A program made the translations under genes and the position numbers. A model generated the notes under the pieces. It was not told where the DNA came from and did not search any database. It saw only the letters and a list, made by a program, of their open reading frames with translations. Below are positions 27,121 to 35,993 of a stretch of 64,000 nt of DNA, piece after piece (the stretch's first letter is position 1; the number at the start of each line of letters is the position of its first letter). The DNA is from a virus. The DNA lies in IMG/VR virus record IMGVR_UViG_3300005095_000015, positions 1 to 64,000 of that record, one strand, 5' to 3'.

Positions 27121-27375
27121 ATGTACTCAAGAGAAGTTGTGGACACGATTACTGGTATAGAAGAAACCGTGATTACTTGTCCTTATTGTGAGATGGAATT
27201 TGTAGTAAAGCTGCTTACACGCACATCGGAAGACGATCCTGATATATTTGACGCACTTGAGATATTAGGAATTTCCTATGATTCGGATAGAGAGTATGGT
27301 GTTTTCTTTTACAAGCAAGTTCCTGAGTTCTGTCCTTACTGCGGTGAAAGGTTAGAGTGGGAGAATGATGAATGA
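27121..27375 (+). CDS. Small zinc-ribbon protein (84 aa)
   Basis: CPYC near residue 20 and CPYCGERLEW near the end give a zinc ribbon split by about 50 residues. It lies between terminase and the portal region. CTGGAGGTTGGTTAGCG precedes the ATG, and the stop overlaps the next start by 4 bases. Function is unknown. Confidence 0.55.
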   Translation: MYSREVVDTITGIEETVITCPYCEMEFVVKLLTRTSEDDPDIFDALEILGISYDSDREYGVFFYKQVPEFCPYCGERLEWENDE

Positions 27376-27875
27376 CTAAAGCTAAGATGCTTTTGATGAT
27401 AGTTGAAAGCTTAGAGTGGATCTACAATCCAGAAGAAGTTAGCAGCAGAATGCACCGTAAGTATGTATCTAAAGACTACATGTTTAGAGGTGTTGGTAAG
27501 ATAGGAGAGGTTGTACATGTGTTGAAAGGTGGGAAGACTGGTGGGTTTTGGTCAAACATTTTAGAAGAGTCTTACATCTCATCTGCTCTGTTTATAGCAC
27601 CTAACTTAAGTCCGGTAAGCAAACCTCTTCCAGAGATACTAGCAAGTTTAAAACTGCCTTTGAGTAAGTTAAAGGCTATTTACCTTGCTCCTAGTGTGAT
27701 TGACTTTATCTCGCTTGTGAGAATTTATCCTTTACCTACTAAAGAAGAATTTGCCAGTTTTTATTTCAACAAAAGCATAGCCTCACAGTATTATAACGAG
27801 GTGTATTCAAAGGTGGAGAAAGTGTTAGGCTTGTCGCTTGATTTTCTTAAGAAACTAAGCAGAGGTAAACTATGA
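27372..27875 (+). CDS. Head-region protein with a variant LLE-type N-terminal tag (167 aa)
   Basis: It begins MTKAKMLLMIVESLE, close to the MSKAKxLLE start of six other proteins in 29-34.5 kb. The remainder is alpha/beta with no known motif. If the tag is a capsid-targeting peptide this protein is an internal head protein, but the LLE motif itself is replaced here (LLM). It sits between terminase and portal, overlapping both neighbours by 4 bases. Confidence 0.45.
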   Translation: MTKAKMLLMIVESLEWIYNPEEVSSRMHRKYVSKDYMFRGVGKIGEVVHVLKGGKTGGFWSNILEESYISSALFIAPNLSPVSKPLPEILASLKLPLSKLKAIYLAPSVIDFISLVRIYPLPTKEEFASFYFNKSIASQYYNEVYSKVEKVLGLSLDFLKKLSRGKL

Positions 27876-29320
27876 AAGCTAAGCAGATTTCGTTAAATGA
27901 GTCTTTTGCTATTCAACAGCAGCTTGCCAAGGAATACTCAGACAGAGTCAAAGAGGCAAAATCAGCACTGGAAGACTATCAACTTAGGCTTGCTCTCATC
28001 TCTGCACTTACCCGTGTAGCCAAGAAAAGAGCTGAGATAGTAAAGCAGGTTGATGAGGTTAAAGACTTTTATCTCGTAGATGCTATACTTCAGCAGTACA
28101 TCGAGGATGCACTCGCTCCTGACATCTCTACAGGAGACATACTCAGTGCTTATTCTAACAAATCATTAGTTGATAAGGAGATAAAAGAGCTCGATGATAA
28201 GTTTAAGTTTGATACTCTGATTCAAGACATAGCTTACGACTTACTTGCTTACGGTGAGTATACTTTGAAGACCGAAGTAGCGAAAGGTAAAGGTATAGTC
28301 GATATAAGAGACGATGTAGATCAGGCCTCAGTCTTTGCCATATCACGCAGAGGTGAAATAGAGAAGTATCTTGTCCGTGAGATTGATCCTCAAAAAGGCG
28401 AAACAGTCAGGCTTGTTGAACCTTGGCAGTATGTAAAGTTCATCTTAGCTGGACGCAAGGTCAGGCTTGATCTACAGGCTGAGCTAGGTGCTCGTTACAA
28501 ACAGCTTAAAGATAAAATACCTCGTTTCATTAGAGTAGGCCGCAGTTTAATTTACTCTATTATTCCCAAGGTGAGAGAGCTTCAGGTACTAGAAACTCTT
28601 GTTCCTGCCTCAAAGCTTAACAAATTAACTCAAGGCTCTGTTATCGGCGTAGCTGTCCCTACCAACATGCGCCCCGAAGATGCGTTCAAAGTAGCAAAGA
28701 GAGTTGAAGAGTTACTTAACAAGCGTATAGGAGTGAATCCTGATACAAACACCCTGGCAGTTGAAAAAGCAATCGCTGCTGCGGGTAGGTTGAGAGTAGT
28801 TCCTATCTTCGGGGATAAGGGACAGCTGCAGAAGTTTGATTACAAGATGGATGAGCCAGATGAGTTGATGTCTTCTATTGAGGATTTAAGGAGAACAATT
28901 TGCAGTGCCATAGGGGTGCCTTATGAGATTTTGTTTGGAGGAGACGGTCCTAAGAGTGACATATTGAAGAGGTATGCAAGGTATTTGAGAAGACTTAGAG
29001 CTATTCAGCGTGCGATAGCTGATGGAGTAAGACAGATTATTTACATACACCTTATCAACAAAGGAGTTAGTTTTACTCCAGCTGATGTACAGGTTGAGTT
29101 CAGGAATAAGCTTATTGAAATTGACAACCTTGATACCCTTGAGTTTTTAGACTCAAGCATCCAAATGCTTACAAATGTAAGAGACTTCGTACTTGACTTG
29201 GCTGGTGACGGTAGTCCATTTGCTGATAAGGTGGACTTAGAAAAGTTTGCTGAGTTCTTAAATAAGCAGTTTAGTGTGATTGGGTTGAATGGAGTAATAA
29301 AAGTTGGGGAGGAGCAGTGA
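27872..29320 (+). CDS. Portal protein
   Basis: This 482-aa protein fits the portal by position (after TerL, before the protease and capsid genes), by length and by texture: a helical N-terminus, beta-rich middle, then VPYEILFGGDGPKSDI near residue 350 and a long helix around residues 360-400, as in portal stem regions. The portal is the dodecameric ring through which DNA passes and to which the neck binds. I cannot confirm T4 gp20 homology without alignment. It overlaps both neighbours. Confidence 0.72.
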   Translation: MKAKQISLNESFAIQQQLAKEYSDRVKEAKSALEDYQLRLALISALTRVAKKRAEIVKQVDEVKDFYLVDAILQQYIEDALAPDISTGDILSAYSNKSLVDKEIKELDDKFKFDTLIQDIAYDLLAYGEYTLKTEVAKGKGIVDIRDDVDQASVFAISRRGEIEKYLVREIDPQKGETVRLVEPWQYVKFILAGRKVRLDLQAELGARYKQLKDKIPRFIRVGRSLIYSIIPKVRELQVLETLVPASKLNKLTQGSVIGVAVPTNMRPEDAFKVAKRVEELLNKRIGVNPDTNTLAVEKAIAAAGRLRVVPIFGDKGQLQKFDYKMDEPDELMSSIEDLRRTICSAIGVPYEILFGGDGPKSDILKRYARYLRRLRAIQRAIADGVRQIIYIHLINKGVSFTPADVQVEFRNKLIEIDNLDTLEFLDSSIQMLTNVRDFVLDLAGDGSPFADKVDLEKFAEFLNKQFSVIGLNGVIKVGEEQ

Positions 29321-29660
29321 TGAGTAAAGCATCTATGTTACTTGAGCAGTTTGACGCTGTCTTGGAGGAGAAAGGTATAACAATGCCCCTAAAGGACTGT
29401 TAAAGAAAGCCTTCTACAAAGATTTATGCCTGATTTGTTTCAAAGTTGTTAGAGGTAAGAAAAGTGCACATTTACTTGAGCATTGGGTAGATGCTGGGTG
29501 TGCATATGGAGACAAAGCAGACAAGTGTACAGTAGAAGATTTGCGTAACTGGTATCTTAAGAACAAAGTTAACTTCCCAGCTGATAAAAAGCGAATCAAA
29601 GCAATCGTCGATGATTTGAAAAAGAAAGGTGTAGATATTAAATTACCTAAAGACTTTTAA
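29320..29660 (+). pseudogene. Tagged head protein with a frame break
   Basis: ATG 29320 has GGAGGAGCAGTG upstream and starts MSKASMLLEQFDAVLEEKG, then stops after 27 codons at 29401-29403. The -1 frame is open from about 29389 to TAA 29658-29660 and encodes some 90 sensible residues (KGLLKKAFYKDLCLICFKVV and onward, with Cys pairs). Adding one C to the CCCC run at 29387-29390 would restore a single protein of about 113 residues. It carries the MSKAxxLLE tag. Mutation, sequencing error or programmed -1 slippage are all possible. Confidence 0.55.
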
Positions 29661-29673
29661 CGGAGGAGTAGTG

Positions 29674-29883
29674 ATGGGTAAAGCGAAAGAGTTATTAATT
29701 CACTTACTAGAGACAAGGAAACTCAAAGAGTTTGAAGTTATTTGTCCTAAGTGTGGTAAAGGTTTTGCGCTTTCAGAGAAAGTTCTAGATATTGATTATG
29801 AGATGCATGATGAGTGCGGCCAAGTTATTCGTGGTATAAATGTCATTTGTCCGTTTTGTAAGTACAAACAAAAGTTGATTTAG
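29674..29883 (+). CDS. Tagged zinc-ribbon protein (69 aa)
   Basis: ATG 29674 follows CGGAGGAGTAGTG; an in-frame GTG lies one codon earlier. It begins MGKAKELLIHLLETRK, a version of the shared tag. CPKCGKGF and CPFCKYK form a zinc ribbon. If the tag targets proteins to the prohead, this would be packaged inside. Confidence 0.55.
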   Translation: MGKAKELLIHLLETRKLKEFEVICPKCGKGFALSEKVLDIDYEMHDECGQVIRGINVICPFCKYKQKLI

Positions 29884-29907
29884 AATATCTAAACGGAGGA
29901 GAAAGGT

Positions 29908-30543
29908 ATGAGCAAAGCCCAAAAGCTACTTGAACAGTTCAACTCTCTTATCCCCTACACCGAAGCTGATGTAGCTCAGGCTTTTAATGCTAAACTCCAG
30001 GAGCTTGGCATTGACGGAGTAACTGTTGACGAAGTGATCGTGGGTTATGAGGGGGATGTACTTGTGGAGTTTGCTGACAACGAAGGTGATGCTGTATCTG
30101 TACTCTTTGGGTATGATCCACAGGAAGGACCTTTTGCTATGGTAGTCAGCGATGATGACGAGCAAATAATCATCGACTTAAGTCCTTTAGAACCACCAAT
30201 TATCAACACTCAGACTGGAGTTTTTCTTGACCTTGTAAACCTTGACTGGGTAAACCTCAGCACTATCAAAACCTTACTCCAGGCGGGTGATGTCGGGACT
30301 AACGAAAACTTCGATCCTAACAAAGTAGATGCTATTGATGAGGTAGTTTACAAGAAGGTGATAAGGCATGGTAAGGTTGTTAAGATTCCTGTGTTGAAGA
30401 GAAAGAAAAGACATCATCTTACAGCTGCTCAGAAGAGAGCATTAGCTTTGGCAAGGAGAAAGGCACACAGTGCTGAGGCTGAGAGGAAGAGGAAAATGAG
30501 CTTGAAGGTAAGACAGAGAATGGGCTTAGATAGAAGTGCATAA
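29908..30543 (+). CDS. Tagged head protein with basic C-terminus (211 aa)
   Basis: It starts MSKAQKLLEQFNSL, matching the shared tag with an LLE motif at residues 7-9. The middle is an acidic beta-rich domain. The last 55 residues are very basic (KRKKRHHLTAAQKRALALAR, then many K/R). A DNA-binding internal head protein, packaged with the genome, fits these features. CGGAGGAGAAAGGT precedes the ATG. Confidence 0.6.
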   Translation: MSKAQKLLEQFNSLIPYTEADVAQAFNAKLQELGIDGVTVDEVIVGYEGDVLVEFADNEGDAVSVLFGYDPQEGPFAMVVSDDDEQIIIDLSPLEPPIINTQTGVFLDLVNLDWVNLSTIKTLLQAGDVGTNENFDPNKVDAIDEVVYKKVIRHGKVVKIPVLKRKKRHHLTAAQKRALALARRKAHSAEAERKRKMSLKVRQRMGLDRSA

Positions 30544-30558
30544 GAAGGTGACTAAGCT

Positions 30559-30777
30559 ATGAACATAGACCACTTAACAGCCATAGCGGTACTCAGTGTA
30601 ATCCAAGCCCGTTACCGTGACAAAGCACCGCCTGACAAGGATGTTCTTGTAAACTGGCTTAAAGAGGAAGGTTCAGAGGCAACCGCAAGCTTCATCCAAG
30701 CTCTGCCTTCCTCTACCTATCGTCAGGTGTTACAAAGTATCCGCAGAGTGAAAGTAAGCGCAAGGGGCAATAGGTAA
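30559..30777 (+). CDS. Hypothetical protein (72 aa)
   Basis: AAGGTGACTAAGCT precedes ATG 30559. It is a small helical protein with a basic end (RRVKVSARGNR). No tag and no known family. It lies in the head cluster. Confidence 0.48.
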   Translation: MNIDHLTAIAVLSVIQARYRDKAPPDKDVLVNWLKEEGSEATASFIQALPSSTYRQVLQSIRRVKVSARGNR

Positions 30778-30796
30778 CCTAATCATGTCATGTTTT

Positions 30797-30813
30797 CCGC
30801 TTTTCTTAGTGAA
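30797..30813 (+). repeat. 17-base repeat CCGCTTTTCTTAGTGAA, copy 2
   Basis: Identical to 24712-24728 and 48383-48399. It lies in the 55-base gap before the gene at 30833 and ends 4 bases before that gene's AAGGAGG site. Confidence 0.45.
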
Positions 30814-30832
30814 GAGTAAGGAGGAAGTATAG

Positions 30833-31573
30833 GTGAAGTTCCAGCGCCTTGAAGACAAAAAGCTCTTCTTACTTGAGCTAGGCAGAACTGACTTGCTTGA
30901 ATCAGTAACTGATGATTGGCAACCTGATGACGAGTTAGTTGAACTGTTCCTCAAGCGCAGAAAGAAGTTGATACAAAGGCTAAAAGACTTCCGCCGTTCT
31001 CAGATACAGAAAGCAAACTGGCGCAGATATAGGTGGAAGTACCTAAAGGGCATAAGAAGGTTTCATCGTTCAACTAAAGGTAAAAGATTCCACAGAGCTT
31101 TAGGCAGGTTTTTAGCTACAAGGATTTTTAGACCAAGTGAGAGCTTAACCACATTTGAAGCCGCTGAAGCCTTAAAAGCATTGAACAGTGCAAAGACTCA
31201 TGCTTATATAGAGCTTGAGTATTACATGCCACTTGAAGATGAGCTTGACTACATTTTCTTTATTGAAGAGCTTGTTCCTATGATAGACAGAGCTGAGAAA
31301 CACCTCATTAGCAAGACTTCACTTTTAACCGAGGATAAGGTTGAGCTAAGTGATGAGGATTTTGAGTTTTTACTCAGACTCGTTGAACCAAATGCTCTTA
31401 TGAAAGCCTTGGCTGAGCAGTTGGGCAAAGAGGTTGAAGAGGTTCAGAGGCTTTGGAACAAGGCTAAGGAGATAGTTGAGAAAGAGCAAGGTAAGCGCGA
31501 AGAGGAATCAGGTTGTTATCTATCTGTAGCTCAAGTGTTTACCAAGTTAGCAGAAGGAGGTAAAGATGAGTAA
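30833..31573 (+). CDS. Head-region protein, basic N-terminal half (246 aa)
   Basis: GTG 30833 follows AAGGAGGAAGTATAG. Residues 45-105 are rich in Arg and Lys; the second half is acidic and helical, with an EVEEVQRLWNKAKEIVEKE coil. A capsid-internal or scaffold-associated role is possible. The family is unknown. Its last 8 bases overlap the next gene. Confidence 0.5.
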   Translation: MKFQRLEDKKLFLLELGRTDLLESVTDDWQPDDELVELFLKRRKKLIQRLKDFRRSQIQKANWRRYRWKYLKGIRRFHRSTKGKRFHRALGRFLATRIFRPSESLTTFEAAEALKALNSAKTHAYIELEYYMPLEDELDYIFFIEELVPMIDRAEKHLISKTSLLTEDKVELSDEDFEFLLRLVEPNALMKALAEQLGKEVEEVQRLWNKAKEIVEKEQGKREEESGCYLSVAQVFTKLAEGGKDE

Positions 31574-32474
31574 AGTAGAAGAATTACTGTCTTTAATCTT
31601 TGAACTATCTGAAAGCAAACAATCGGAAGGGTTTCCGATTGTTCAAGTAGCTGAGTTGGATTCTGGAAGCATTAGATTTCTTAGCAGTTCTGCTAGGCTC
31701 AGTGCTCCTGGCAAAGTTACTACAGTTGATACCAGCGAGTTAGAACCTTATGTTGATAAGCTTTATTATGTCACGGCTATCAAATCTGACATCTCAAAGT
31801 CAGAGTTAGCGAAGAAGATCCTTGAGGAAGCAAAATACTTTTTCATTCCTGGGTCCAAAGAAGGAAAAGGTCAAGTATTTTGTTTTGGTGAAATGGAAGA
31901 TGTTAAGTATAAGAAGATAAACACAAATCTTGGTATAATTATAGAGAAGTTCCAGAAAGAAAAAGACGGGCTCAAGCTTTCATTCTCCCTTTTGAAAACA
32001 AAAGCCACAATCTATAGGATTGACGATATCTACAATCACCTTGCTTTCTGGGCAAACCTAAGAGATGTTTTTAAGTTATGTAGAATAAGCAATTGGAAGG
32101 AACTTTACGACCAGAAAGTTGCAGAGTTCCAGAAAGAGATAAAGAAATCCCAAAAGAAAACCAAAAAGAAGAAGAAGGGAGGCAAAGTCCTTTGCTACAA
32201 ACTAATTCAAATCAAAGGGTTCAGTGATTTGAAAAAAGTTGATTATGATTGGATGGAAGACGAGGGAGTCGATTGGACAGATCTTATAGATTGTTGGGTG
32301 GAGGCTCCTAACGAGATGCGTACCATAGATACAAGAAAAGCAAAAGCAGTTAAAGTTACCTACGCTTACTACGATAACAGGGCAGATGCAATTGGTAAAG
32401 TTGAAGTTACTGCGTACAAGAAAGGTTCAAGTTACTACATTCCTGTAGAGACAGTTGATAACATAACTGGGTAG
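31566..32474 (+). CDS. Tagged head protein (302 aa)
   Basis: It begins MSKVEELLSLIFELSESK, a variant of the shared tag; a similar LSESK-type segment also follows the tag of the gene at 34157. Residues 195-210 form a run of Lys (KKSQKKTKKKKKGGK). The rest is alpha/beta without a recognised motif. An internal head protein is the best guess. AGGAGGTAAAG precedes the ATG. Confidence 0.52.
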   Translation: MSKVEELLSLIFELSESKQSEGFPIVQVAELDSGSIRFLSSSARLSAPGKVTTVDTSELEPYVDKLYYVTAIKSDISKSELAKKILEEAKYFFIPGSKEGKGQVFCFGEMEDVKYKKINTNLGIIIEKFQKEKDGLKLSFSLLKTKATIYRIDDIYNHLAFWANLRDVFKLCRISNWKELYDQKVAEFQKEIKKSQKKTKKKKKGGKVLCYKLIQIKGFSDLKKVDYDWMEDEGVDWTDLIDCWVEAPNEMRTIDTRKAKAVKVTYAYYDNRADAIGKVEVTAYKKGSSYYIPVETVDNITG

Positions 32475-32488
32475 GACTGGAGGAAGTG

Positions 32489-32764
32489 ATGAGTAAAGCT
32501 AAAGAGCTACTTGAATCGATCAGCCGATTGAAACTAAGTCGTGATTTTGAGCTTGATATTGAGGAGTTGTTGAAAGACTTAGCAGACGACACTGTTGATG
32601 AGCTAAAGCATCAAGAGTTACTTGATGATAACTCAGTAGACGAAATGGATCTTGAAAAAGCTTTTGAAGAGGTAATAAGAGACAACACTGAAAAAATAAC
32701 CAAAACTTTACTGAAAGGCGTCATCGAAATTTTATCGTCTGAGTACAAGATCAAGGTGGAGTAA
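32489..32764 (+). CDS. Tagged small helical head protein (91 aa)
   Basis: ATG 32489 follows TGGAGGAAGTG; a GTG lies one codon earlier. It begins MSKAKELLESISRL, a full match to the tag with LLE at 7-9. The remainder is acidic and helical. It directly precedes the prohead protease gene, as would an internal or core protein. Confidence 0.58.
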   Translation: MSKAKELLESISRLKLSRDFELDIEELLKDLADDTVDELKHQELLDDNSVDEMDLEKAFEEVIRDNTEKITKTLLKGVIEILSSEYKIKVE

Positions 32765-32794
32765 AACATTAAGATAGAGATAGAGGGTAAAGCA

Positions 32795-34141
32795 ATGGCT
32801 GAGCGTTTAATTGACATCTTCCAACCAGAGATCAACTTTACGGTTGAGGAAGCCAGAGGCGAGGTTGACGGTAAGCACATACTTGCTAAGGTGAAGGGGC
32901 AGTTCTTTGTTCCTGAAGGTGTTTCTCGCAATCGTCGTTACTACTCAAAACGCCTCTGGGAGAAGGCAATAGCAAAGGTAAAGCCTAAACTAGAGAACAG
33001 AACCTTGTTTGGTACTATTGGGCATGAGCAGGAACTTACTGACACAGCTTTACTTGAAGGTAAAGTGAGTCACATCGTTACCAACCTTTATATTGATGAG
33101 AAGGGGAGAGGTATTGGTGAGGCTCTTATCCTTAACACACCAGCTGGACGCATCCTAAACACCTTACTCAGGGCAGGTTCAAAGCTTTATGTTTCAAGCA
33201 GAGCTGAGGGTAAGTATAGTGGAACTAAAAATGGTGTTCCAGCTGTTGATGAGGATGCATACGACTTGAAAGGTTTTGACTTTGTTATAGATCCTGGCTT
33301 TCTTGAGGCTCAGCCCACTTTGGTTGAGTCTTTACAGAAGGATCTAAGTTACTGTTTTCCAAATCTTTGCAGAACCAAAGACGAAAAACAATCTGAAGGA
33401 GGTAGTGAAATGCCTGACACCGCATTACTCGAAGCTAAGGTTAGGGAGAATTTAAAGCTACAGGAAGACTTGAACAAGGCTTTAGAGCAGCTTGAGGAAC
33501 TCAAGAAGCAAGTTGCAGTGCTTGAGAGCAAGAACAAAGAGCTTGAGAAAGAGGCTGAAGTGAAGAAAGAACTCGAAGCAAAGGTAAAAGAACTCTCTGA
33601 CAAGCTTGAAGCTTACGAGAAGCTTGGCTCTGTTGATGAGTTAAGCAAAGCACTTGACGAAGCTAAGAAAGCTTTAGAAGCTTATAAAGAACTCGGTACT
33701 CCAGAGGAGATACAGGAAGCATTAGACAAGGCAAAAGAAGCACTTGAGGCTTACAAGGAACTTGGCTCACCTGAAGAGCTTGATGAGGCTATAGAGAAGG
33801 CAAGGGAGTTGCTTGAGAAGTACAAAGAACTCGGTACTCCAGAGGAGATAGAACAGGTATTTGAAAAGGCCGAGGTTCTTATCTCTGAGTCTCTTGAAGC
33901 AGCTAAGGAGAAGAAGATTGAAGAGCTGGCCAATGAGCTCGGTGTGGCTAAGGAGATGGTTGCTAAAGTGTATGACAAGATGAGTGAGGGAGAGATTAGA
34001 GAGTTTTTCAAAGAGTTTTCTGAGCATCTCAAGATAAAGGAAAAGTACGAAAAGAAAGACGAAAGCAAAGAGCACGAGCCAGCAAAGAAACCTTTATGGG
34101 AGAGCAGAGGCGAAAGACTTTTGTCTTATTTCAGCAAGTAA
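32795..34141 (+). CDS. Prohead protease fused to scaffold/core protein
   Basis: This 448-aa protein combines two head-assembly functions. Residues 1-195 resemble T4 gp21-type proteases: GQFFVPEGVSRNRRYYSKRL, His77 in GHEQE and Ser134/Ser135 in VSSRAEG as likely catalytic residues. Residues 206-448 are almost all charged coiled coil, like scaffold proteins, with about four repeats of a 23-residue unit (A-YKELGTPEEI) between 275 and 370. TALLE at the junction (residues 209-213) is an LxE site where self-cleavage might separate the parts. An internal start at 33410 can give the scaffold alone. GAGGGTAAAGCA precedes ATG 32795. Confidence 0.8.
   Translation: MAERLIDIFQPEINFTVEEARGEVDGKHILAKVKGQFFVPEGVSRNRRYYSKRLWEKAIAKVKPKLENRTLFGTIGHEQELTDTALLEGKVSHIVTNLYIDEKGRGIGEALILNTPAGRILNTLLRAGSKLYVSSRAEGKYSGTKNGVPAVDEDAYDLKGFDFVIDPGFLEAQPTLVESLQKDLSYCFPNLCRTKDEKQSEGGSEMPDTALLEAKVRENLKLQEDLNKALEQLEELKKQVAVLESKNKELEKEAEVKKELEAKVKELSDKLEAYEKLGSVDELSKALDEAKKALEAYKELGTPEEIQEALDKAKEALEAYKELGSPEELDEAIEKARELLEKYKELGTPEEIEQVFEKAEVLISESLEAAKEKKIEELANELGVAKEMVAKVYDKMSEGEIREFFKEFSEHLKIKEKYEKKDESKEHEPAKKPLWESRGERLLSYFSK
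33410..34141 (+). CDS. Scaffold protein from an internal start
   Basis: ATG 33410 is in frame with the protease gene (residue 206) and has AAGGAGGT (33396-33403) 6 bases upstream, as strong as any site in the window. It would give a 243-aa scaffold without protease, beginning MPDTALLEAKV. The same layout is known for lambda C/Nu3. Sequence shows the site; use is inferred. Confidence 0.65.
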   Translation: MPDTALLEAKVRENLKLQEDLNKALEQLEELKKQVAVLESKNKELEKEAEVKKELEAKVKELSDKLEAYEKLGSVDELSKALDEAKKALEAYKELGTPEEIQEALDKAKEALEAYKELGSPEELDEAIEKARELLEKYKELGTPEEIEQVFEKAEVLISESLEAAKEKKIEELANELGVAKEMVAKVYDKMSEGEIREFFKEFSEHLKIKEKYEKKDESKEHEPAKKPLWESRGERLLSYFSK

Positions 34142-34156
34142 GAGTGGAGGTAGACG

Positions 34157-34507
34157 ATGAGTAAGGCTAAGAAGTTACTGGAGTTAATAGAGGGGTTATC
34201 TGAGAGTGAGAAAGTGGAATTAACCTTTTGGCGTTTATTGGAAGTAACTACTCCTGACGGTGTGCAGGTTGTCTTAGCAGTATACCGAGACAAACAAGGT
34301 AACAAGTATCTAAGCTGTTGTGGATGGGGTACGGACGAAGGTTACAAGCTAAGAAACGATTATCCTGAAGTCGAAGTAGTTTATGACGGCAAAGATGCTG
34401 ACGGTGACGATCTTTACAAAGGAGAGAAAGGTATCTACTTTTCTAAGGTGAAAGATCCAAGGAAAGCAGCTAAGGAAGCCTTTGGTGGAAAGGCTAAGTA
34501 TCTTTAG
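34157..34507 (+). CDS. Tagged head protein (116 aa)
   Basis: It begins MSKAKKLLELIEGLSESEK, a full match to the tag. The rest is a small alpha/beta domain with an acidic GKDADGDDLY loop. It lies between scaffold and major capsid genes. GTGGAGGTAGACG precedes the ATG. Probably an internal or decoration-type head protein; the family is unknown. Confidence 0.55.
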   Translation: MSKAKKLLELIEGLSESEKVELTFWRLLEVTTPDGVQVVLAVYRDKQGNKYLSCCGWGTDEGYKLRNDYPEVEVVYDGKDADGDDLYKGEKGIYFSKVKDPRKAAKEAFGGKAKYL

Positions 34508-34586: not shown

Positions 34587-35993
34587 ATGGCTGACATGGT
34601 AGAAAGCAGAGTTAAGAAGATGGAACAGGAGGCAGAGATACTCTACGAGCGTTATCGTCCACAGATGGACTTGTTTGAAAAATCCATTGTAGCTCAACTC
34701 AGAGGAGGTTTACAGCCTTACGATGTGTACGCATTAGGAAAGCAACTCGAGGCATTCGATGTTTACAAGCAAATTTGTGAAGAGGACGGTAATGTTAATC
34801 AGCTTGGTAGAATTCCTGACATTGCTTACGATGTCATCACAGTGGCTTACGGAACATCTGTAATACCTGTTATTGCTTCTGTTCAGCCTGTGGATGACGA
34901 GAGAGGAACTGTATACTTCAAGAATGTAAAGGCTGGAACTACGAAGGGTGCAGTAACTGAAGGTGAGACCTTAGCGTCTCCGACTTCTGGTGCAACTACG
35001 CCTTCTGGTTATGCTTCTAACTACATTGAGGGTGAGGTTGTAGGAACTGGAGATACCGCTGGAACCACAACCTTCAGTGCAACCTTAGCACAGGCACCTG
35101 TTAGGTCTCAGACTGTAAAGGTAACTGTTTCTGGAGTTGCTAATGTCTTTGGACAGGATGATGGAAACGGAAACATCATAGGTGCAGGTGTAAGTGGTAC
35201 TATTGATTACACTACTGGTGCAATTACTCTTAACTTCCTCAATGCTCCACCTGCAGGAGCACAGATTCTTGTAAGCTATCAGACCAACTACGAGCTCGCA
35301 GAGGACATTCCTTCCATCTCCACATTCTGGGACAGCACTTCTATAATGGCAAGGGTCTATGCACTCAAAGGTACAATTGGAATGCTCCAGAGCTTCGGAA
35401 TGAGAAAGAGGTTTGGAATTGTTGCTGAGGACGAGCTTGCAAAAGACCTTGTTGCAGAGATCAATGCAGAGGTAGGAGGAGACCTCATCAGAAAGCTCAA
35501 TGCAAACGCACCTGGGTCTGTAACCTGGAGCAAAACTCCTCCAGCCGGTGTTTCCTACTATGAGCATAAGCAGACCTTTAAGGATGCATTAGCAGATGTT
35601 GAGTCTACCTTAGTTGGACAGGCTGGAAGAGGTGTGATTAGTACTCTTATCGCTGGAAGAAATGTGGCTGCAGTAATTCAGACTTTACCTGGATTTACTA
35701 AACTTACTGATGGTTCCACAATAGGTGCACACATCTTTGGAACGCTTGACGGAATGACAGTGGTAAGAGTAACTGATGCATCTGTGCTTGATCCTAATAG
35801 AGCAATTGCAATCTATAAGGGAGCTAACCCATTTGAGGCTGCAGGAGTGTATGCTCCTTATATGCCACTTACAGTAACTACAACCTTACCTGCAGGAAAG
35901 AATCCTCTTGGTAACCAGAGAGCTGCTGCTGTTTGGGCTGGTGTTGAGGTGCTCGTACAGAACTTTGTTGTTGCTCTTGTTATGACTTCTTAA
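34587..35993 (+). CDS. Major capsid protein (T4 gp23-like) with inserted beta-sandwich module
   Basis: This 468-aa protein builds the icosahedral shell. It follows protease/scaffold and is rich in Gly, Ala and Thr, with a long helix around residues 265-285 as in the HK97 fold. Residues 149-233 are a beta-sandwich insertion (VGTGDTAGTTTF ... GTIDYTTGAITL) shared with a baseplate protein and two tailspikes. I chose ATG 34587 (GAGAGGAGGTTGTTAGCA upstream); an upstream in-frame start lies too close to that site. GGA and GCA codons are preferred over the GGT and GCT common in neighbours, consistent with very high expression. An efficient terminator follows. Confidence 0.85.
   Translation: MADMVESRVKKMEQEAEILYERYRPQMDLFEKSIVAQLRGGLQPYDVYALGKQLEAFDVYKQICEEDGNVNQLGRIPDIAYDVITVAYGTSVIPVIASVQPVDDERGTVYFKNVKAGTTKGAVTEGETLASPTSGATTPSGYASNYIEGEVVGTGDTAGTTTFSATLAQAPVRSQTVKVTVSGVANVFGQDDGNGNIIGAGVSGTIDYTTGAITLNFLNAPPAGAQILVSYQTNYELAEDIPSISTFWDSTSIMARVYALKGTIGMLQSFGMRKRFGIVAEDELAKDLVAEINAEVGGDLIRKLNANAPGSVTWSKTPPAGVSYYEHKQTFKDALADVESTLVGQAGRGVISTLIAGRNVAAVIQTLPGFTKLTDGSTIGAHIFGTLDGMTVVRVTDASVLDPNRAIAIYKGANPFEAAGVYAPYMPLTVTTTLPAGKNPLGNQRAAAVWAGVEVLVQNFVVALVMTS
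35031..35285 (+). repeat. Shared beta-sandwich module, copy in the capsid protein
   Basis: Encodes residues 149-233 of the capsid protein. It matches modules at 49252-49506, 51629-51889 and, more loosely, 59410-59613. Twenty bases (GATGATGGAAACGGAAACAT) are identical between this copy and the baseplate copy. Confidence 0.7.

Follow-up and report, generated by a model that had tools for sequence, protein, structure and literature searches.

In a 64,000-nucleotide stretch of viral DNA (the window), which comprises bases 1-64000 of the 95,675-bp IMG/VR virus record IMGVR_UViG_3300005095_000015, we observed that seven genes of the head region have M[ST]KAxxLL, or a sequence close to it, at their start and that, in the complete record, the same N-terminal peptide of 12-13 residues (hereinafter the tag) is present on at least eleven otherwise unrelated proteins. 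The features of the tag and its genomic context make it highly probable that this peptide is a head-targeting propeptide similar to the capsid-targeting sequence (CTS) of phage T4, which would be cleaved by the prohead protease from cargo proteins that are packaged into the head and, probably, injected; packaging, cleavage and injection are what we infer from the sequence comparisons described here.

The shared N-terminus in this record is far beyond chance. When residues 2-13 of each gene were compared with those of all others, across 139 gene calls and with a BLOSUM62 score of at least 26 as the threshold, 17 pairs were found vs 0, 0 and 1 at control offsets within the same proteins; nine of the 11 genes in these pairs are tag genes, and the other two (57410 and 58464) start differently. 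As a positive control, the scan of a 14-kb segment of T4 with 29 called genes returned ipI, ipII and ipIII only, which carry the CTS according to PMC3012670 and PMC9026906. The codons of the conserved Leu7 differ in 35 of 45 gene pairs and those of the conserved Leu8 in 45 of 55, implying that the peptide is the object of selection; the mean nucleotide identity of the tags (0.52) is close to the amino-acid identity (0.48). Beyond the tag, no homology was detectable between the bodies of any pair of tagged proteins from the same genome, in any genome compared, and a paralogous family was accordingly rejected as the source of the shared start. Thus, the original prediction, that seven head-region proteins with unrelated bodies and different codons share a peptide maintained by selection, is borne out in all these respects and extended by four genes elsewhere in the record, with the correction that the frame at 29320 breaks off after 27 codons.

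The tagged genes

All seven tags in the window are on the + strand, and their starts are preceded by Shine-Dalgarno-like sequences. The most upstream one, MTKAKMLLMIVE (27372-27407; the start reads MTKAKMLLMIVES), belongs to a 167-residue gene (27372-27875), with a putative cut, here and below marked by an arrow, at IVE↓S. The tag MSKASMLLE (29320-29346; the start reads MSKASMLLEQF) opens the gene at 29320-29403, the frame of which ends after 27 codons, with an apparent continuation open in another frame to about 29660, so that this copy may be broken or misassembled; a frameshift, a programmed shift and an assembly error all are possible. The tag MGKAKELLIHLLE (29674-29712; putative cut LLE↓T) starts a 69-residue zinc-ribbon-like gene (29674-29883) and MSKAQKLLE (29908-29934; the start reads MSKAQKLLEQF) a 211-residue gene (29908-30543). 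These are followed by MSKVEELLSLIFE (31566-31604; putative cut IFE↓L) on a 302-residue orphan gene (31566-32474), MSKAKELLE (32489-32515; the start reads MSKAKELLESI) on a 91-residue gene (32489-32764) and MSKAKKLLELIE (34157-34192; putative cut LIE↓G) on a 116-residue gene (34157-34507).

The four tagged genes beyond the window are 67549 (MSKAVQLLALVE), 69246, a zinc protein (MSKARELLELVE), 69473, a DUF3175 protein (MSRAKQILDLYE), and 73015 (MTKAKELLEVMPITE). The N-terminus of 69944 (MNNIKEFLLKLAEAG) passes the tag profile as well but was treated as doubtful and left out of the eleven; by eye, 69944-72613 is a probable AAA ATPase with a weakly tag-like start, MNNIKEFLLKLAEA, and is followed by a 590-residue gene.

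Anatomy of the tag and the putative cleavage site

The tag consensus is M[SN]KA[QK][EK]LLxΦΦE(E), where Φ is a hydrophobic residue; the conserved positions are Lys3, Ala4, the hydrophobic residues 7, 8 and 11, and then Glu12 or Glu13. Conservation stops sharply at this point, with 1.04 bits of information at residue 13 and 0.26 at residue 14. When genes were picked on residues 1-7 only, to avoid circularity, Glu at position 12 or 13 was found in 45 of 65 tagged genes vs 34 of 242 other genes (p 2e-17), and Glu9 in 16 of 65 vs 26 of 242. The motif (L/I)xE lies within residues 7-16 in all 11 tags of the record and, over all genomes, in 60 of 81 tagged vs 55 of 287 untagged N-termini.

The original prediction had the tags cut after LLE, which ends at residue 9, and this does not hold up as the general site: Glu9 is present in about a quarter of the tags and absent from three of the seven in the window (27372, 29674 and 31566), the conserved acid is Glu12/13 after hydrophobic residues, and conservation ends there. 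The usual cut would, therefore, probably follow Φ-x-Glu12/13 rather than the LLE at residue 9. The more general idea of T4-like capsid targeting stands without the LLE cut and has strong support in the S77-family prohead protease, the tags of related phages and the T4 control. With respect to helical amphipathicity, the tags score 0.46 vs 0.32 for other N-termini, and residues 3-12 of 29908 are predicted to be helical with moderate confidence.

A gp21-family protease among the tagged genes

The gp21-type protease that was expected in the same cluster is indeed there. The untagged gene 32795-34141 (+) encodes a fusion of an S77 (T4 gp21-family) prohead protease with a coiled-coil-like scaffold region; the product matches Pfam PF03420 above the gathering cut-off (E 2e-8, 34.3 bits vs 27) and the head maturation protease family phrog_207 (E 3e-29), with a profile match to PDB 5jbl, the T4 gp21 structure. 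His77 and Ser134, which we take to be the conserved catalytic pair of the S77 family, are invariant across six relatives. This protein is the candidate tag-cleaving enzyme. A probable internal in-frame start (ATG, codon 206, 33410-34141, +) with a strong Shine-Dalgarno sequence, similar to internal starts in the protease open reading frames of most relatives examined, probably yields the scaffold alone, and this scaffold might be the docking core. A sequence of the form Φ-x-E plus A, S, G or D lies just ahead of the EVDG start of the protease domain in most relatives (for example, FTVEE↓A, FDLSE↓A, FTLQE↓S and FVIEE↓A), which would suit a protease self-cleavage site of the tag type. In the related loci, the fetched stretches show the tagged genes grouped at distances of no more than about 10 kb from the protease.

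Tag dialects in related phages

The original prediction proposed a scan of related genomes, and the same unbiased N-terminus comparison, applied to loci with a related major capsid protein (MCP) or protease and to cultured phages, revealed the same arrangement: many S77-protease phages carry a shared N-terminal tag of their own, each in its own dialect. The dialect is MNKAQKLLxLIEE in L003 (29 pairs, 0 in controls), MSKAKEIIxLFEG in L057 (10 pairs), MxLIDELNQLLE in L059/L060 (7 pairs), MNRAQELIKMCEQ in L061 (4 pairs), MSKAREILEKIK plus MKTKAQEMLDFLNE in L062 (37 pairs, one control pair), MNKAQKLINLIEE in L031/L038 and MSRAGRIIELLEE in L066; the cultured Yersinia phage YerA41 has MSRISxLNKKFE(A/S) (6 pairs, one control pair), another group (L082, L088, L092) has MxKMKIKVHE(A/S), and the cultured Streptococcus phage GXN1 has four tagged proteins, three with MRL[VI][RK]L[TN]E(D/S) and one with MRLIRLLED. 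Of the 417 gene starts in 13 loci, 81 match the tag profile vs 0.8 expected, one of the 81 coming from a duplicate L057 locus.

The dialect goes with the genome, not with the body of the protein. Under permutation of labels, the difference between within-genome and between-genome tag similarity was 7.1 vs at best 1.7 in 2,000 permutations (p<0.0005), and orthologous bodies carry whichever dialect is local: for the zinc protein 69246, the start is MSKARELLELVEQ in the present record, and its L062 and L059 counterparts have MKTKAQEMLKFLE and MSLIQEIVQLAEE, respectively; for the DUF3175 protein 69473, the corresponding starts are MSRAKQILDLYEK, MKTKAQEMLDFLNE and MRLIDELYSLLYQ; and the body of 29908 is conserved in five relatives, every copy with the tag of its own genome. 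A local dialect on shared bodies is what a common trans-acting receptor and protease would impose.

The site at which the tags might be cut seems to be mirrored in other head proteins of some phages. The MCPs of YerA41 and Cobetia phage Carin-5 contain KKYE↓S and AKYE↓S, and the tags KKFE↓A/S and RKYE↓S; in the Streptococcus agalactiae phage GXN1 (L095; 8466, 18957, 19213 and 20773), the short tag is MRLVRLTE(D/S), and LTE is seen both in the tags and near the N-termini of the protease and the portal. These resemblances are suggestive; a match of this kind between tags and MCP is not evident in the present record or in L062.

Two kinds of tag, MSKAREILEKIK and M(K)TKAQEMLDFLNE, coexist at the locus L062 (1373-17090), perhaps because there are two destinations or two different proteases. 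In L091 (12639, 13701 and 18317) and L088 (7582), several proteins share another N-terminus, CSMQKKKES, in addition to the KVHE-type tag of these phages. Pattern scans of IMG/VR with back-translations of two tags contributed the useful loci L031, L038 and L054, as well as L042, which is the L003 contig; many further matches were dismissed as an unrelated MNKAQKFL protein or for want of a tag cluster.

The cargo and the surrounding head genes

Most of the tagged bodies are orphans. Matches above the Pfam cut-offs include an AAA ATPase (L003 2233), a DnaJ-domain protein (L062 5759) and DUF3175 (69473), and weaker matches across the relatives are to SprT-like, response-regulator, methyltransferase and zinc-ribbon domains. 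The protein 29908 has a basic C-terminal tail that matches phrog_1053 (E 2e-11); a fold search with this conserved cargo protein returned nothing below E 0.2. PADLOC profiles gave a generic AAA (IetA-like) match and weak matches only on the cargo, and no function assignment was adopted from them. The bodies differ strongly between relatives, with enzyme-like domains among them, and, judging by these domains, the mix looks more like host-directed proteins than like structural parts; the cargo would presumably be delivered into the host.

The first listed gene of the head cluster is the terminase (25280). The untagged genes of the cluster also include a zinc ribbon (27121), the portal protein (27872-29320, +; phrog_1497, E 2.5e-9), 30559 and 30833, which lie between the tagged 29908 and 31566, and the MCP (34587-35993, +), with 52% identity to the MCP of Rhizobium phage RHph_TM30. 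In L027 (record 83575-86321), genes that by eye look like QueE, QueC and FolE suggest a 7-deazaguanine pathway and, perhaps, modified DNA.

Proposed mechanism and alternative explanations

Most likely, the tag folds into a short amphipathic helix, with Ala4, Leu7, Leu8 and the hydrophobic residue 11 on one face, that would dock the cargo on the scaffold core, the presumed partner, of the growing prohead; the S77 prohead protease would then cut past Φ-x-Glu, usually at Glu12 or Glu13, and would thereby free the cargo within the head for delivery with the DNA. A tag held as one genome-wide code would give each phage its own dialect, and new cargo would join by acquiring the tag. The wider proposal is that a large lineage of phages with S77 proteases, most of them uncultivated, has a private address code that is specific to each genome, uniform among cargo proteins of unrelated kinds and altered only as a whole, and that each phage thereby brings about a dozen proteins into its head for delivery; we consider this about as likely as not.

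Several observations weigh against cleavable head targeting as the function of the tag. Four of the 11 tagged genes of the record are located 35-40 kb away from the protease; four of the 11 tags (29320, 29908, 32489 and 73015, the last of which has ITE15) are without Glu12/13, and these might be cleaved at Glu9, further on or not at all. The identity between the tag and the T4 CTS (MKTYQEFIAE) is not significant, the layout of hydrophobic residues and Glu being the same. No tag cluster was found in the fetched stretches of several cultured relatives, Vibrio phage Va2, Carin-5, Xanthomonas phage phiXF1 and Escherichia coli phage IME392, so the trait is not universal. The support from YerA41 is weak by itself: the label 'structural protein' on its tagged proteins is only presumably a proteomic call, and the particle proteins detected numbered about 63, out of a total of some 200 gene products (PMC7354516).

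Part of this evidence would fit a helix that docks without being removed, anchoring core or structural head proteins to the scaffold or the shell, with none of them injected. Conserved residues 3-11 would be enough for docking, some tags are without the usual Glu12/13, and T4 allows targeting without processing when P1 is Asp (PMC9026906). We nevertheless consider this explanation unlikely: apart from the hydrophobic face, no feature is as enriched as Glu12/13, with which conservation ends, an S77 protease is encoded in the cluster, and the bodies are highly variable and partly enzyme-like. Very improbable is a localisation or stability tag with some other destination, such as the membrane at which heads assemble, a compartment for replication or a host factor; an amphipathic helix at the N-terminus can attach a protein to a membrane or to a partner, and the tag is known only as amphipathic, but it is tied to late head clusters and to S77-protease phages, and the scan that detects it singles out the known head-targeting leader of T4.

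Two explanations that deny the peptide itself a function have hardly any credibility. Good Shine-Dalgarno sites on all tagged genes, and A-rich early codons that favour initiation, might point to a signal in the RNA, for example one that enhances translation initiation or binds a regulator, with the peptide as a by-product; such a signal was rejected on codon usage, the Leu7 and Leu8 codons being unlike in 78-82% of pairs and the nucleotide identity not exceeding the amino-acid identity as an RNA signal would need, and, in addition, Glu12/13 is retained and orthologous bodies wear different dialects in different genomes. Recombination can spread short N-terminal modules, and tagged genes often are adjacent, as would be expected if one gene start had recently been copied onto its neighbours without acquiring a function. 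This, too, we regard as next to impossible, being contradicted by the codon and dialect data: the codons diverged while the residues did not, and many phages show the pattern independently of one another, in dialects that differ. Cleavable head targeting is the explanation that we prefer.

Implications

Without virion proteomics, it is difficult to tell which proteins a phage injects with its DNA. Should the tag prove to be a packaging signal, such proteins could be listed from the genomes of many uncultivated phages, and candidates for anti-defence and takeover functions could be drawn from these lists; the tag could also supply a protein-delivery tag beyond those of T4 and P1. If the lineage-wide code is real, its cargo would span AAA ATPase, DnaJ-domain, SprT-like, response-regulator-like, methyltransferase-like and zinc-ribbon proteins, and reading the code from sequence would be enough to predict all the proteins that a phage of the lineage injects. 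Given the dialects, one may ask which surface of the core or of the protease evolves together with the tag. The cultured tag carriers YerA41 and GXN1 make cleavable head targeting testable.

Comparison with known systems

In SPN3US and phiKZ, the prohead protease trims N-terminal propeptides of internal head proteins after Glu, as proposed here; by contrast, those propeptides are mostly 111-254 residues long, the SPN3US motif is A-x-E and about 80% of the SPN3US head proteins stay uncleaved (PMC10052503 and PMC5694885). Unlike propeptides of this type, the tag is conserved only up to residue 13 and mostly has L, I or V at position 10/11. DarB of P1 also relies on an N-terminal peptide, which is enough to load a reporter into the head; however, PMC9024508 describes Dar proteins without a shared consensus, a DarB signal between 9 and 30 residues and no such multi-protein tag set. 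YerA41 is similar in that its tag is on five head-cluster proteins, four of them labelled 'structural protein' in the record, and different in its dialect and its distant MCP (31% identity); its particles contained 63 proteins by liquid chromatography-tandem mass spectrometry, enzymes thought to be injected among them, and the accessible text does not mention the tag (PMC7354516).

The closest parallel is T4. According to PMC9026906, the T4 CTS propeptides are N-terminal, 10-19 residues long and cut at residue 10; residues 4 and 7 are mainly responsible for targeting and residues 8 and 10 for processing, and Asp at position 10 blocks processing with targeting kept. The internal proteins have only the leader in common, inhibit GmrSD enzymes and act as anti-restriction factors (PMC12373910). 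Like the CTS, the tag is a short N-terminal leader on otherwise unrelated proteins, has an (L/I)xE-type end (T4 ipII and ipIII have MKTYQEFIAE↓A), is encoded alongside a gp21-family protease and has conserved residues 4 and 7, the targeting residues in T4 (PMC9026906); by eye, the dialect nearest to the CTS is MKTKAQEML of L062. The differences are that the tag has 12-13 residues rather than 10 and is found on 11 cargo genes rather than three, that cargo genes sit inside the head cluster and that dialects vary by genome across relatives. We found no description of these tags in the literature covered, which mostly excludes subscription journals. The T4-like logic is known; the tag sequence, the scale of the cargo and the dialect structure are new.
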